DNA of 59,867 nt from Candidatus Pacearchaeota archaeon (GTDB lineage: Archaea; Nanobdellota; Nanobdellia; Pacearchaeales; GW2011-AR1): NCBI GenBank assembly GCA_018221285.1, contig JAAOYJ010000041.1, forward strand, positions 1 to 59,867. The letters are read 5' to 3'. The number at the start of each line of letters is the position of its first letter. The stretch's first letter is position 1. Both the position numbers and the translations under genes were made by a program. A model generated the notes under the pieces. The model ran no database searches. It was not told the origin of the DNA and saw only the letters and a list, made by a program, of their open reading frames with translations. Of this stretch, positions 6,134 to 57,021 are shown in pieces.

Positions 6134-6200
6134 GCTCGCTGTCGCGAGGATGTTTGGGAAGTTGTTAATAGGATAGCTTCGCATTATAGGTTGGATAACT
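6134..6200 (+). repeat. Dispersed repeat, copy 1
   Basis: This copy runs from GCTCGCTGTCGCGAGG through the core GGATAGCTTCGCATTAT to GGATAACT. It lies between the 3' end of the minus-strand 59-residue gene and the promoter of the lysine-tailed protein. The 5' part can fold (CTCGC/GCGAG). Related copies are at 9131, 9487, 16919, 41138, 41881, 51560 and 56900. Confidence 0.8.
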
Positions 6201-6209
6201 TACATTATT

Positions 6210-6389
6210 TTATTCTCTAACCACCATTCCATATTCCCCAGTTTTAGGGTCTTGTCCAATAGAAACATCTATCTTAACAGTTCGCTCGCTTCCAGAAGTG
6301 TTTGTTTTGAAAGAACCATATCTTGGGAAATCTTTATGACCTTCCATTAATATCTCTGCTCCGAATATATCTTCAAAAGTTAATACCAT
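6210..6389 (-). CDS. Small hypothetical protein, 59 residues
   Basis: An intact frame of 60 codons including TAA, starting MVLTFEDIFGAEILMEGHKD and ending GEYGMVVRE. It has a strong TATA-like ATATTTATAATAT just upstream on the minus strand (about 6408-6420), close to the argS stop, giving a near-leaderless start. The mixed strand and helix pattern and the promoter make it likely real. Function unknown. Confidence 0.6.
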   Translation of the reverse strand: MVLTFEDIFGAEILMEGHKDFPRYGSFKTNTSGSERTVKIDVSIGQDPKTGEYGMVVRE

Positions 6390-9130: not shown

Positions 9131-9198
9131 GCTCGCTGATGCTCGCGGATTAGGAGAAGTTGTTAATAGGATAGCTTCGCATTATACATTGAGCAACT
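9131..9198 (+). repeat. Dispersed repeat, copy 2
   Basis: This copy starts immediately after the trxB TAG and runs from GCTCGCTGATGCTCG to GAGCAACT, with the core GGATAGCTTCGCATTAT. The GCTC and GAGC ends are inverted. The placement in the 3' untranslated region suggests an RNA end or terminator role, or a neutral landing site. Confidence 0.85.
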
Positions 9199-9258
9199 GT
9201 ACAAGGTTCTATTATCTTAAATGGTAAACTTTTTAAACGACCTCTCTCATAAACAAAC

Positions 9259-9486: not shown

Positions 9487-9553
9487 GCTCACTATCGTTC
9501 GATGGATATTTGAACAATTAATGGAATAGCTTCGCATTATATCTTGGGCAACT
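9487..9553 (+). repeat. Dispersed repeat, copy 3
   Basis: A diverged copy running from GCTCACTATCGTTCGATGG to GGGCAACT with the core GGAATAGCTTCGCATTAT. It begins 4 bp after the stop of the coiled-coil gene and ends about 25 bp before the tRNA promoter. Confidence 0.8.
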
Positions 9554-9578
9554 TACAATTTATCTGACTAGCTAAAGA

Positions 9579-13603: not shown

Positions 13604-16600
13604 ATGAAAACTATAAAAACAATACTGATAGCACTTATATTAATCAACTGTGTTCTTAGTGTGTCTGCTATTACAGGTGTTCAGTTTGTAGATAGTTTCT
13701 GGGATGATTCAAATTCTTTGGCTGTTACAGGTGTTCAGGAAGTGATTTACAAATGTTCAGATTCTGCATGTTCTTCCCAAGGAAGTTTAATTACTAGTGT
13801 AAATTCTGGAGGTTCAAATCAAATAACAATCGAGTTTCCATATAATCCTTCATCAACTGAAAACAATCAAGATTATTATGCTCATTTCACATTCAAAGAC
13901 GGATATCTTCCAATGGAGTACATTGATAATATTTGGGGATATGGAGTTACTAACAATTATAATTATAGATTATTAAAAGAAACTTCTTGTCAGGCGCCGA
14001 TTGATTCGTTCAGTGTTACAAATCAAAATTTTGCTAATGAGCCAGTTGTTATTAATATGGTTGCTGAACTTGGTGCAAACACTGATAGTGCTTTCACAGA
14101 TCTAAGGATCCCTTGGTTTCCAGTAGGATATGCAGACCATTATTCTGTTGAGACAAGGGTTACTTTGGAGGTTCTAGATGGAAGTGATAATGTGGTTTAT
14201 ACAGATACAGAGGATTTGAATATTCTTATGGATACTACTGAGAATGCCCAGTTTGTATGGACACCTACAACTCAAGGAAACTACAGGGCAAGAGTGAGAA
14301 CAGATGTGATAGACAGCCAGTGTAGTCAGAGTAACACAGTACAAGATACATCTTCAAAGGATTTTGTGGTATTACCGAACAGACCGCAGGACGAATGTTA
14401 TACAATATTAAATAACTTAGAGACTGAGCAAAGCGGGACTACTTTCAAAATCTTATTTGATAAAATAAGTAATTATGCTAGTGATGCTTTTGTAAAGACT
14501 GCTGTACCTACGAGATTGGCTTATCAGATTGCAGATGGTCCGATTCTTTTATATACTAATAACATTCTTCTTTCAGCAAATTCAAACACAGTTGATCCCC
14601 AAGCAATTGAGATTGACTGGACTCCTCCTTATGATGAGAATTTTGAAGTACAAATAACTGGTGTTGCAGAGAGTGCTTTTTGTAGTGGGGTTGCGAATCC
14701 TGCAGAGACAGCTACTCTGTCTTTTTTCGCAGTAGAATCAGATACAGTAATCTATTCTACAACGTTTCTTATTAGAGATTCCATTACAGGAAACCCTATT
14801 GAAGATGCAGTGGTTAATTTTGGTGCGCTAAATGGATTAACAGATAGCTTAGGAAGGATGGTATTTGAAACTGAAGCAGGCGTATATGTTTGGGGAGTTG
14901 GAGCTTTGGGCTATATTAATGGGACAGGGATTTTAATAGTAAATTCTAACCAGACACTGAGTGTTCAGATGACTGCGGCGATTCTAGATAATGACGGTGA
15001 TGGTTTTGGAAGTGATGTTGATTGTAATGATAATAATGCTAATGTTTGGCAGAATTTGGCAGGATATACTGACGCAGATGGGGATAATTTTGGGGTTGGA
15101 GCTGTACAACAAGTTTGTTCAGGATTGAATTTACCAACAGGTTTTACAAATAACTCTGTTGTAGATTGTGATGATACAGATGTTGCTGTAAATCCTGATG
15201 CTACAGAAATTTGCGGAGATGAAATTGATAATAATTGTAATGATGAAACTGATGAAGCACCTTGTTCTGTGGATAATGATGGTGATGGATTTGCAGAGGA
15301 TATTGATTGTAATGATAATAATGATAGTATATGGCAAAATATAACTGGGTACACAGATGTTGATGGAGATGGAATTGGGGTGGGGGCTGGGCAGCAGATT
15401 TGTTCAGGATTGAATTTGCCTTCAGGGTTTACAGATAATGCTGGTCCAGACTGTGATGACAATAATGTGAATGCTTGGCAAAATCTTACAGGATATACTG
15501 ATGCTGATGGAGATGGTTTTGGGTTTGGAGCTGCACAGCAAGTTTGTTCGGGAGCTAGTTTGCCAACAGGTTTTACAGATAATCCTGTTGCAGATTGTAA
15601 TGACACAGATGTGAATGTAAATCCAGGAGCTCCAGAAATTTGTGGTGATGAAATTGATAATGATTGTGATGATGAAATTGATGAGACACCTTGTTCTGTG
15701 GATAATGATGGTGATGGTGTTGCAGAGAGTCTTGATTGTAATGACAATGATGAGGATGTCTGGCAGAATTTGATAGGCTATACTGACAATGACGGAGATG
15801 GATTTGGAGTAGGCAATCAAATTAATATTTGTTCGGGAGCTAGTTTGCCTCCAGGATATACAAACAATCCTGCTAATGATTGTGATGATACTGACGCGAA
15901 CATAAGTCCTGGGGCTGAAGAGATAGATGGTGATGGGATTGATAATAATTGTAACAGAGTAATCGATGAGAGCGGAATAGATGATGACCAAGATGGTGAT
16001 GGGATTCCTGATATTGACGACCCTGATGCAGATGGAGACGGGGTAATGGATTCTCCTTTTGGGAATGTTGATCCTGATGGAGATATTGATAATGATGGGA
16101 TACCAAACATAGATGATCAAGATATGGATGGTGATGGGATACCAAATGGTGTTGACCCTGATGCAGAAGGTGACGATGTGATAGATGACGCTGTTTGTGG
16201 GAACTGGGTATTAGAGGATATTGAGCAGTGTGATGATGGTAATTCAATAAATGGAGACGGTTGTTCAAATGTCTGTCTTGTTGAAGCAGGAGATGGTGGA
16301 GATGATGATGATGACGATGGTGGGACAAGTTCAAGTGGAAAAAGCTCAAGGAAATGTAGTCCAGATTGGAAATGTTCTGATTGGAGTGAATGTACAAATG
16401 GTATGAAGACAAAAAGTTGTACTGATTTGAATTTTTGTGGAGACTCTTCAAGTAAACCTATTGAGGCAACAGAATGTGGTGGAGGTTTTATTACAGGATT
16501 CTCAACAATTGGATTGAGAAGCAAGATAGAAGCTTTTGATGTAGAAGAATTCGTGAAAAGCCCGCCTTTTATTGTTGGAGTAGGAGCAGTTCTTATTTTG

Positions 16601-16636
16601 TTAATGTTAAGTTTATTCTTGCCAAGGAGAATTTGA
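13604..16636 (+). CDS. Large surface protein with MopE-like metal-binding and thrombospondin-3-like repeats
   Basis: This is a 1010-residue exported protein. After a signal peptide (TILIALILINCVLSVSA) come about 430 residues of beta-rich domains, one carboxypeptidase-regulatory-like (PIEDAVVNFGALNGL). Four repeats follow, each with DxDGDGFG and DCNDNN acidic loops, a WQNLxGYTDADGDGFG unit and a CSGxxLPxGFT unit, as in MopE-type metal-binding motifs. Thrombospondin-3-like Asp loops follow (DGDGIPDIDDPDADGDG), then a DUF4215-like CGNWVLEDIEQCDDGNS, a TSP1-like CSPDWKCSDWSEC, and a C-terminal membrane helix with RRI. It is likely a calcium-stiffened surface stalk. Confidence 0.85.
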   Translation: MKTIKTILIALILINCVLSVSAITGVQFVDSFWDDSNSLAVTGVQEVIYKCSDSACSSQGSLITSVNSGGSNQITIEFPYNPSSTENNQDYYAHFTFKDGYLPMEYIDNIWGYGVTNNYNYRLLKETSCQAPIDSFSVTNQNFANEPVVINMVAELGANTDSAFTDLRIPWFPVGYADHYSVETRVTLEVLDGSDNVVYTDTEDLNILMDTTENAQFVWTPTTQGNYRARVRTDVIDSQCSQSNTVQDTSSKDFVVLPNRPQDECYTILNNLETEQSGTTFKILFDKISNYASDAFVKTAVPTRLAYQIADGPILLYTNNILLSANSNTVDPQAIEIDWTPPYDENFEVQITGVAESAFCSGVANPAETATLSFFAVESDTVIYSTTFLIRDSITGNPIEDAVVNFGALNGLTDSLGRMVFETEAGVYVWGVGALGYINGTGILIVNSNQTLSVQMTAAILDNDGDGFGSDVDCNDNNANVWQNLAGYTDADGDNFGVGAVQQVCSGLNLPTGFTNNSVVDCDDTDVAVNPDATEICGDEIDNNCNDETDEAPCSVDNDGDGFAEDIDCNDNNDSIWQNITGYTDVDGDGIGVGAGQQICSGLNLPSGFTDNAGPDCDDNNVNAWQNLTGYTDADGDGFGFGAAQQVCSGASLPTGFTDNPVADCNDTDVNVNPGAPEICGDEIDNDCDDEIDETPCSVDNDGDGVAESLDCNDNDEDVWQNLIGYTDNDGDGFGVGNQINICSGASLPPGYTNNPANDCDDTDANISPGAEEIDGDGIDNNCNRVIDESGIDDDQDGDGIPDIDDPDADGDGVMDSPFGNVDPDGDIDNDGIPNIDDQDMDGDGIPNGVDPDAEGDDVIDDAVCGNWVLEDIEQCDDGNSINGDGCSNVCLVEAGDGGDDDDDDGGTSSSGKSSRKCSPDWKCSDWSECTNGMKTKSCTDLNFCGDSSSKPIEATECGGGFITGFSTIGLRSKIEAFDVEEFVKSPPFIVGVGAVLILLMLSLFLPRRI
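14980..15960 (+). repeat. Tandem MopE-type repeat block within the surface gene
   Basis: Four imperfect protein-level units are visible. Each carries a WQN(L/I) anchor, GYTDxDGDxxG, a CSGxxLPxG(F/Y)T unit and a DC(D/N)D loop; some DNA segments such as GATAATGATGGTGATG recur nearly exactly. The acidic periodicity also produces long open frames on the opposite strand, which are artefacts. Confidence 0.85.
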
Positions 16637-16918: not shown

Positions 16919-16982
16919 GCTCGCTAACGCTCGAGATAAAAAGTAGTTAATAAAATAGCTTCGCATTATACTTTGAGCAACT
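16919..16982 (+). repeat. Dispersed repeat, copy 4
   Basis: A clean copy running from GCTCGCTAACGCTCGAGAT to GAGCAACT with the core AAATAGCTTCGCATTAT. It begins 4 bp after the preceding stop. The ends TTGCTC and GAGCAA form an inverted pair. It lies between that gene and the convergent 85-residue gene. Confidence 0.88.
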
Positions 16983-17011
16983 TATCATGGTTTCTTGTGA
17001 TTCGTTTATTA

Positions 17012-17821: not shown

Positions 17822-17843
17822 AGTGTTTTTGTTGCTTATCATC

Positions 17844-18102
17844 GTAGACCAGGTTGGCGGGTTAGTCCTCCGCTGTTTGCAAACGGACTTTAGGCAGACT
17901 GCAAGAAGGTCGGTGACAAGTGCGTTGGAAAGTCCTTGTTCGGACGTTGACGTTTTGTCCTCTTTGATCTTGCAGGTGCGAAATGGGTCAGGCCTTGATC
18001 GGAGCAGCCCTAAACATTTGTTAAGATGCTTGGAGGGTCGCAGAACTGAGGAAGAATAAGGGTAGCTCTCTTTACAATCTTTGAGCTGGCTTTCGGGTCT
18101 AC
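17844..18102 (+). ncRNA. ffs: Signal recognition particle RNA (archaeal 7S type)
   Basis: This GC-rich island inside AT-rich DNA carries the SRP helix 8 signature: GGGTCAGG with, on the other arm, GGAGCAGCCC, enclosed by AAATG/CATTT. The 5' bases GTAGACC pair with GGTCTAC near the 3' end, and TTGGC pairs with GCTGG, forming helix 1 as in archaeal SRP RNA. GGGTTAGTCCTCCGCTG near the 5' end fits the Alu region. Length is about 260 bases. A 78-codon frame across it is an artefact. The 3' end is set by helix 1; a second copy of the 3' end lies at 18212. Confidence 0.87.
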
Positions 18103-18107
18103 ACTAA
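18083..18107 (+). repeat. Direct repeat at the SRP RNA 3' end, copy A
   Basis: These 25 bp, containing GGCTTTCGGGTCTACAC, form the 3' strand of SRP helix 1. They match 18212-18236 with one mismatch (C to T in the fourth base). The first copy is the natural 3' end of the RNA. Confidence 0.85.
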
Positions 18108-18211
18108 ATTACCAGCTCCGAATAAATTCGGACGCTCGCGAGGATACTCTTCGCATAGTTCATTGCACTCCCAACTTTGTTGGATGCTCGCCGATGCGGT
18201 CGCTTCGCATA

Positions 18212-18236
18212 GAGTTGGCTTTCGGGTCTACACTAA
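18212..18236 (+). repeat. Direct repeat at the SRP RNA 3' end, copy B
   Basis: The second copy of the SRP 3' end, separated from copy A by 104 bp. The spacer holds a CCGAAT/ATTCGG hairpin at 18119-18132 and two segments resembling the dispersed repeat (GCTCGCGAGGATACTCTTCGCATAG and GCTCGCCGATG with CGCTTCGCATAG). This is how an insertion or a target-site duplication at an RNA gene end looks. The whole gap from 18103 to 18289 holds no gene. Confidence 0.85.
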
Positions 18237-41880: not shown

Positions 41881-41944
41881 GCTCGCTGACGCTCAAGATA
41901 AGAAAGTAGTTAATGAAATAGCTTCGCATTATACATTGAGCAAC
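41881..41944 (+). repeat. Dispersed repeat, copy 6
   Basis: A full copy from GCTCGCTGACGCTCAAGAT to GAGCAACC with the core GAAATAGCTTCGCATTAT. It lies about 25 bp past the minus-strand fttA stop and about 55 bp before the collar-like gene start. Confidence 0.85.
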
Positions 41945-41968
41945 CAAGATTTTGATAAGAATATAAAA

Positions 41969-56899: not shown

Positions 56900-57021
56900 A
56901 TTCACTTCGTTCATAATTAATTTAAGTTATTAATAAGATAGCTTTGCATTATGGGGAGTAACTAAGCACCCTGTTATTTTTATTAACTACTTCTTTATCT
57001 CGAGCAACTTGTTGTGAGCAA
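56900..57021. repeat. Dispersed repeat, copy 7, composite inverted arrangement
   Basis: The left part (56900-56962) reads ATTCACTTCGTTC with AAGATAGCTTTGCATTAT on the plus strand. The right part (56981-57021) is the family's left half on the minus strand (GCTCGAGATAAAGAAGTAGT). Two opposed pieces therefore sit back to back between the HIT gene start and the enolase promoter. The 214-bp gap has no gene. Confidence 0.7.

Follow-up and report, generated by a model that had tools for sequence, protein, structure and literature searches.

A short hairpin element between duplicated gene tails at the SRP RNA gene and other loci of Pacearchaeota genomes

Rickettsia palindromic elements are short palindromic insertions. 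Gene hybrids of a different kind are made by the mobile ORF elements of fungal mitochondria, which are known from atp6 of Allomyces and from atp6, atp9, cox2 and nad3 of Glomus, bring a foreign carboxy-terminal end while the native end remains downstream, and carry a LAGLIDADG or GIY-YIG endonuclease gene (PMC3630166). Integron gene cassettes with attC hairpins occur in archaea (PMC9668308), and a review of archaeal tyrosine recombinases makes no mention of 7S RNA, SRP, signal recognition, protein-coding genes or RNase P (PMC8371274). Here we compare with these systems a locus in a stretch of 59,867 nucleotides from a Candidatus Pacearchaeota archaeon (the window; its genome, G000, is assembled in 43 contigs, with an estimated completeness of 81.8% and a contamination of 5.77%), in which the 3' tail of the SRP RNA gene is present twice.

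The SRP RNA gene of the window belongs to the Rfam family Archaea_SRP (RF01857), whose model it matches over its full length (1-317 of 317) with a score under the gathering score of 96.5, as is the case for most relatives: a search of 56 genomes, including the window's own, gave a match in 45, and 14 of the 56 were above the gathering score. The tail attached to the gene, copy A, is the 3' end of the archaeal SRP RNA, and it recurs as an orphan, copy B, at a spacing of 129, with 24/25 bases identical and a sole mismatch (C at 18086, T at 18215). A preliminary description had reported this 25-bp repeat with one mismatch around a 104-bp insert, and repeat, positions and insert length all proved exact (Table 1). 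The 20-mer GGCTTTCGGGTCTACACTAA, taken from the repeat, occurs at exactly two places in the window even when up to 3 mismatches are allowed, compared to a mean of 0.00 in 100 shuffles. The preliminary description had also proposed that the locus be compared with related genomes, and this comparison showed that the spacer is not a fixed part of the SRP gene: at the 30 SRP loci compared, out of 44 matched relatives, none has a second SRP 3' end within the next 400 bases downstream (355 bases in one), the best downstream tail score being 10.2 as opposed to 22.8 in the window. A single copy of the SRP 3' end is the norm among relatives. Because the Rfam match uses copy A, the gene is expected to be intact, and the SRP RNA produced is probably the normal form ending at copy A, with copy B inert.

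Table 1. Positions of the SRP RNA gene, its duplicated tail and the parts of the intervening spacer in the window
Feature	Position	Strand	Evidence
SRP RNA gene (archaeal 7S RNA)	17842..18104	+	Rfam RF01857, 72.7 bits, E 2.9e-16
Copy A of the SRP 3' tail, attached to the gene	18083..18107	+	direct repeat 24/25; single in 30/30 relatives
Spacer between the SRP tails	18108..18211		exactly 104 bp
S', CCAGCTC	18112..18118	+	copy A begins with its exact reverse complement, the 7 bases GAGCTGG
Small hairpin 1, CCGAATAAATTCGG	18118..18131	+	sequence, fold, aligned unit
Core 1, GCTCGCGAGGATACTCTTCGCATA variant	18134..18157	+	covariance model 21.2 bits, E 0.0043
Linker, similar in the two-core units of ybjQ and G001	18158..18170	+	unit alignment
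Small hairpin 2, CCAACTTTGTTGG	18171..18183	+	fold; 5' arm able to pair with the start of copy B
Core 2, GCTCGCCGATGCGGTCGCTTCGCATA	18186..18211	+	covariance model 45.9 bits, E 1e-9
Copy B, the orphan SRP 3' tail	18212..18236	+	direct repeat

The G000 assembly contains another SRP RNA gene, 88% identical over 201 bases, on contig C18 (2892-3094), which is either a second gene or derives from a related strain within the assembly; it is broken off at the contig end with its 3' end missing, and hence unusable for the comparison of tails. On the same contig (L037), a leader-like sequence, GAGGTGATGGGCCTCAGAAACCTAATTCTGAAT, which we take to resemble a C/D-box RNA, stands ahead of four successive small genes (1365-1410, 1725-1765, 2045-2085 and 2455-2500). 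The SRP RNA 3' end of another genome, G008 (L026, 1200-1505), adjoins an array of a different palindromic repeat, in which the SRP tail is not repeated.

The spacer, with a GC content of 0.51 compared to 0.352 for the window, gave no Rfam family at gathering score. It is made up of two tandem cores of a dispersed hairpin element, one of the GCTCGCCGANNNNGTCGCTTCGCATA type and one a GAGGATAC variant, and each core is preceded by a small hairpin of its own; it holds more than the hairpin and the "fragments" of the dispersed repeat that the preliminary description had noted. Two-core units of about 100 bp are found at the SRP gene, at the 3' end of a G000 gene that we presume to be ybjQ from the look of its protein, and at another gene in G001, and they differ from each other in that cores are swapped or replaced by variants. 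A genome search with the SRP gene and its spacer returned short spacer matches at four other places, and the 26-bp core GCTCGCCGANNNNGTCGCTTCGCATA shared by these matches occurs 6 times in the genome when up to 3 mismatches are allowed (reversed control, 0), while the core variant with GAGGATAC is present at 2 places in G000.

The core is able to form a hairpin with conserved unpaired bases. Among 34 aligned cores, a set that includes three more divergent ones (the last two rows and the near-chance row of G098), the share of cells that pair is 90.8%, and both sides are altered in 19 cells, compared to 5.4 in shuffles (0/500), the double changes being located chiefly at pairs 10-21 (C-G to T-A) and 12-20 (G-C to A-T). 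The core pattern at up to 3 mismatches occurs in 7/180 genomes of the family (control 0), and a looser pattern in 10/200 genomes of the order, among which G201 is probably chance-like. A covariance model at E<=0.1 has matches in 13 of 22 chosen genomes, the weakest being near chance level and the counts including 19 for G109, 16 for G001, 16 for G028 and 11 for G000. The element-bearing genomes include G000, G001, G007, G028, G059, G081, G098, G109 and G152, and their congeners G002, G115 and G135 are poor in it. Stricter filters applied across the phylum left 3/279 genomes with a match at E<=1e-4, every one from the family of the window. A degenerate exact core pattern, run against 84,980 species genomes, hit 8 stretches, each with Candidatus Pacearchaeota or Nanoarchaeota in its title; a stricter pattern gave no match in that collection, nor did two core patterns in a search of viral contigs. 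Among the genomes searched, the core was found only in those of Pacearchaeota or Nanoarchaeota.

In two genomes (L046, L049, L055), the reading frame of Lys-rich protein tails runs through the core and meets no stop there, and these cores appear to be translated. The window contains a second dispersed repeat in six copies (6159-6210, 9157-9208, 9512-9563, 16941-16992, 41904-41955 and 56924-56975), which ends in AGCTTCGCATTATAC, an optional A and TTGAGCAACT and is often directly behind a stop codon; two of its members match the core covariance model weakly (E 0.079 and 0.27), across a longer insert, and the repeat is probably a longer relative of the element. Tandem DNA repeats also underlie the Asp-rich repeats of a 1010-aa open frame at 13604-16636 on the plus strand.

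The sites of the element have a layout in common: a gene tail A is followed by S', an inverted copy of the start of the tail, by one or more hairpins, and by a gene tail B. We scored flanking tail duplication automatically at 37 sites, at which the cores were located by regular expression and which were kept if the flank was sufficient, using random positions in the same locus as the control. Duplication was detected at p<=0.02 at 18 sites, compared to 0.7 expected, and at p<=0.05 at 25; the 12/37 sites without duplication above chance (p >0.05) count against the explanation that we favor below. The three bases following the last core are RWG at 28 of the 37 sites, duplications range from 13 to 56 bp, and at the other sites read the unit is similar in size to the SRP spacer. 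In both G000 and G028 the element lies between two copies of the ybjQ tail, and tail-plus-hairpin units occur in tandem in G007, G028 and G152, for example as two 93-bp units at a gene of G007, while a G028 gene ending in KGEEVA has three tails. RNA genes are targets as well: a tRNA in G098 and, as Rfam matches confirm, the RNase P RNA of G059 and of G152, with tails that by their sequence resemble RNase P RNA at element sites in G028 and G001 and tRNA-like sequence at sites in G000 and G001.

At the 3' end of ybjQ in G008 (L092, 1823-2210), five ybjQ tails stand in tandem, and between them lies a palindromic unit that has no core in common with the element of the window; the stop is followed by the same inverted arm, GCCATAAG. 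The layout of tails and hairpins may not be confined to this core. A core-independent scan for it gave 67 hits, as many as the reversed-sequence control (67); in the window the scan and the control gave 1 each, and in the core-bearing loci 26 each. For so symmetric a layout this control is not valid and the scan is uninformative. A stricter scan of the window had one hit, no more than its controls would lead one to expect.

S', which is reverse-complementary to the start of the tail, is placed after tail A and often directly behind the stop codon, and its sequence changes with the gene: CCTTGCA, for example, at ybjQ (tail ATGCAAGG) and the arm given in Table 1 at the SRP gene. The longest S' matches at 22 sites read by hand add up to 136, compared to 88.2 +/- 5.3 when targets were swapped, and none of 2000 swaps reached 136. 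The match is at least 6 bases long at 14/22 sites and at most 5 at 8/22, and the latter count against the explanation favored below. Because S' matches its own target over swapped ones, related units bear different arms at different targets. The 5' arm of small hairpin 2 was not counted as S', because nearly the same sequence is present at ybjQ, where the target is different.

Tails A and B of coding genes differ mostly by synonymous changes. In 20 hand-picked pairs, two of which come from one array (L078), 60 of 72 changed codons are synonymous (83.3%) and 12 nonsynonymous, compared to a neutral expectation, for the same number of random changes, of 18.4% synonymous on average and 33.3% at maximum (3000 runs). 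These figures leave out pairs with no codon differences (L075, the stop aside, L138 and L140), pairs that are short and Lys-rich or unclear in frame (L056, L058, L061, L062, L066, L068, L071, L079, L080 and L125), the in-frame case L049, the RNA genes and the ybjQ array of G008; the pairs L053, L063, L064, L070 and L133 were trimmed where the tails are no longer alignable, and L059 where its tail A ends. Within 17 codons, the ybjQ pair of G000 shows 12 changes, every one synonymous. Certain B tails have an in-frame ending of their own, such as KLR versus KLRAPR in G028. A decaying duplicate should not keep mostly synonymous changes, whereas the joined ends of orthologous genes would, and on this sequence evidence tails A and B look like gene ends from different lineages. 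A comparison of the ybjQ ends of 11 genomes marked neither tail A nor tail B as foreign. The downstream tails of the G008 ybjQ array, which has the different hairpin, show amino-acid changes and one frameshift, as decaying duplicates do. Tails are near-identical at the SRP gene, in G007 and at the RNase P RNA gene of G059, and since the SRP tails differ at one base, there is no sign of an imported tail there.

We therefore favor, as the rather likely explanation, that the SRP spacer is the insertion of a short palindromic mobile element of Pacearchaeota that has no ORF, and we propose that what moves is the tail of a gene together with an S' matched to the target and a bulged hairpin, set directly before another copy of the same tail. 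The layout and its statistics were observed; the donor, the intermediate and the enzyme are inferred. One of the two tails would derive from the orthologous gene of another lineage; joining would occur at a short homology, S, usually beginning with RWG, via a folded single strand and with the help of an enzyme. The target gene would gain a working tail with the old one left behind, such that the host gene retains a complete 3' end in copy A while copy B stays downstream. More tentatively, and in our judgment possible but with the odds against it, Pacearchaeota may have a recombination system that moves gene tails, in which the foot of the hairpin is rebuilt to fit the target, the orthologous genes of other lineages and RNA genes (SRP, RNase P, tRNA) are entered and the tail is swapped with the gene remaining functional, akin to an integron cassette whose site is set by base-pairing rather than by a fixed sequence.

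As for a mobilizing enzyme, Y1 transposase genes are present in 6/20 genomes, 5 of which bear the element (G001, G007, G028, G098 and G109), and none was found in the 81.8% of the G000 genome that the assembly is estimated to cover. At 4 loci with Y1 (IS200-type) genes, no core-like hairpin beside the gene matched the model at E<=1. Phage-integrase domains occur in 18/20 genomes, with or without the element, and for this reason do not discriminate. None of the 20 genomes, G000 being 81.8% complete, has an integron integrase (TIGR02249) above cut-off; such an integrase may be missing from attC clusters. None of these searches turned up a mobilizing enzyme, and this, like the incomplete and partly contaminated state of the G000 assembly, counts against the favored explanation.

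The explanations that dispense with a moving tail have to account for the arm and for the synonymous divergence. A transposition-like insertion of the hairpin at a long staggered cut, in which the hairpin is attached to the strand end at S, its free end folds back to copy S into S', and filling of the gap then yields a second tail running from S to slightly beyond the stop, would involve no import and would leave the tails identical at insertion; it accounts for the target-specific S' and fits the near-identical tails of the SRP gene, of G007 and of the G059 RNase P RNA, but a downstream tail free of selection should lose amino acids, yet the changes are mostly synonymous, certain B tails have their own different in-frame endings, and duplications of 13-56 bp would be long and variable for staggered cuts. 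We regard it as unlikely, though deserving of attention. Palindromes between direct repeats are prone to slippage, and tandem arrays are present in G007, G008, G028 and G152, as would be expected if local replication slippage or template switching at a palindrome had provoked a tandem duplication of the tail in place, with no mobile tail at all. That process requires the hairpin to be there first, yet the hairpin lies between tails at unrelated genes with S' fitted to each, and the synonymous divergence is left unexplained, which makes slippage an improbable source of the layout.

The SRP locus taken by itself had suggested two further readings in the preliminary description, an integration scar and an alternative 3' end of the SRP RNA. 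The idea of an integration was upheld insofar as relatives have a single tail and the element lies at unrelated loci, which points to an insertion; its classical form, the scar of a tyrosine-integrase element at the SRP RNA 3' end that later shrank to 104 bp, is very improbable. Direct repeats at the 3' end of an RNA gene and the phage-integrase domains of most genomes speak for such a scar, but those domains are present irrespective of the element, S' is specific to the target, protein genes are struck too, and the repeat varies per locus, with no single att sequence shared by the insertions. We rejected a classical att scar on these grounds and because no remnant of a larger element, nor any larger version at the sites read, was detected. 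That copy B serves as a functional alternative SRP RNA 3' end, or that the spacer is a conserved 3' processing module, is the least probable proposal, one to which we give hardly any credence: copy B does retain the 3' strand of helix 1, and in the minimum-energy fold of the longer transcript the 5' strand pairs with copy B to close the molecule, but this fold is no better than that of shuffles (z -0.56), the arrangement is absent from the 30 relatives, and the same element resides at functionally unrelated genes.

If the favored explanation, insertion of a mobile element carrying a gene tail, is true, a gene-less element of less than 110 bp would be able to give essential genes, for RNA as well as protein, a new end and yet leave them working, and tail replacement would recur at the same genes in different archaeal genera. 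It would be a prokaryotic counterpart of the hybrid genes of fungal mitochondria and a route of horizontal transfer for gene ends in very small genomes, and it would point to a new mobilizing enzyme. Fragments of gene tails downstream of genes in these assemblies would then not necessarily be assembly errors.

Our literature search, with most subscription journals outside its coverage, returned no such element in archaea. The element resembles REP/RAYT palindromes and IS200-like Y1 elements in being a short dispersed palindrome with conserved bulges, but no Y1 gene was found in the G000 assembly and no core beside the 4 Y1 genes; to our knowledge, neither the duplication of gene tails nor a target-specific arm is among the features of REPs. 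By description only, it can also be likened to mitochondrial double-hairpin elements and Rickettsia palindromic elements, which are short palindromic insertions, sometimes with two hairpins per unit, and for which we know of no tail duplication or target-matched arm; the in-frame position of some cores within Lys-rich ORFs adds to this likeness. Integron attC sites have the fixed core sites GTTRRRY and RYYYAAC. A bulged hairpin between inverted short sites, as in attC, is present here, as indicated by covariation and by the match of S' to S, but the fixed core sites are absent, since the hairpin is followed by a site that changes from gene to gene (RWG at 28/37 sites). Compared with the integron cassette, the order of content, inverted short site, bulged hairpin and direct short site is the same and tandem arrays are formed in both, but the short site of our element changes with the target gene and its content is the tail of a gene rather than a gene. 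In the fungal hybrids (PMC3630166), an element likewise lies between two tail copies, of which the proximal one is the working copy, and the differences are mostly synonymous. Unlike those elements, the pacearchaeal one is shorter than 110 bp, has no endonuclease gene, enters RNA genes and has a target-matched arm beside its hairpin. The element is closest in effect to the gene hybrids of fungal mitochondria and closest in geometry to the integron cassette, and we file it under neither.
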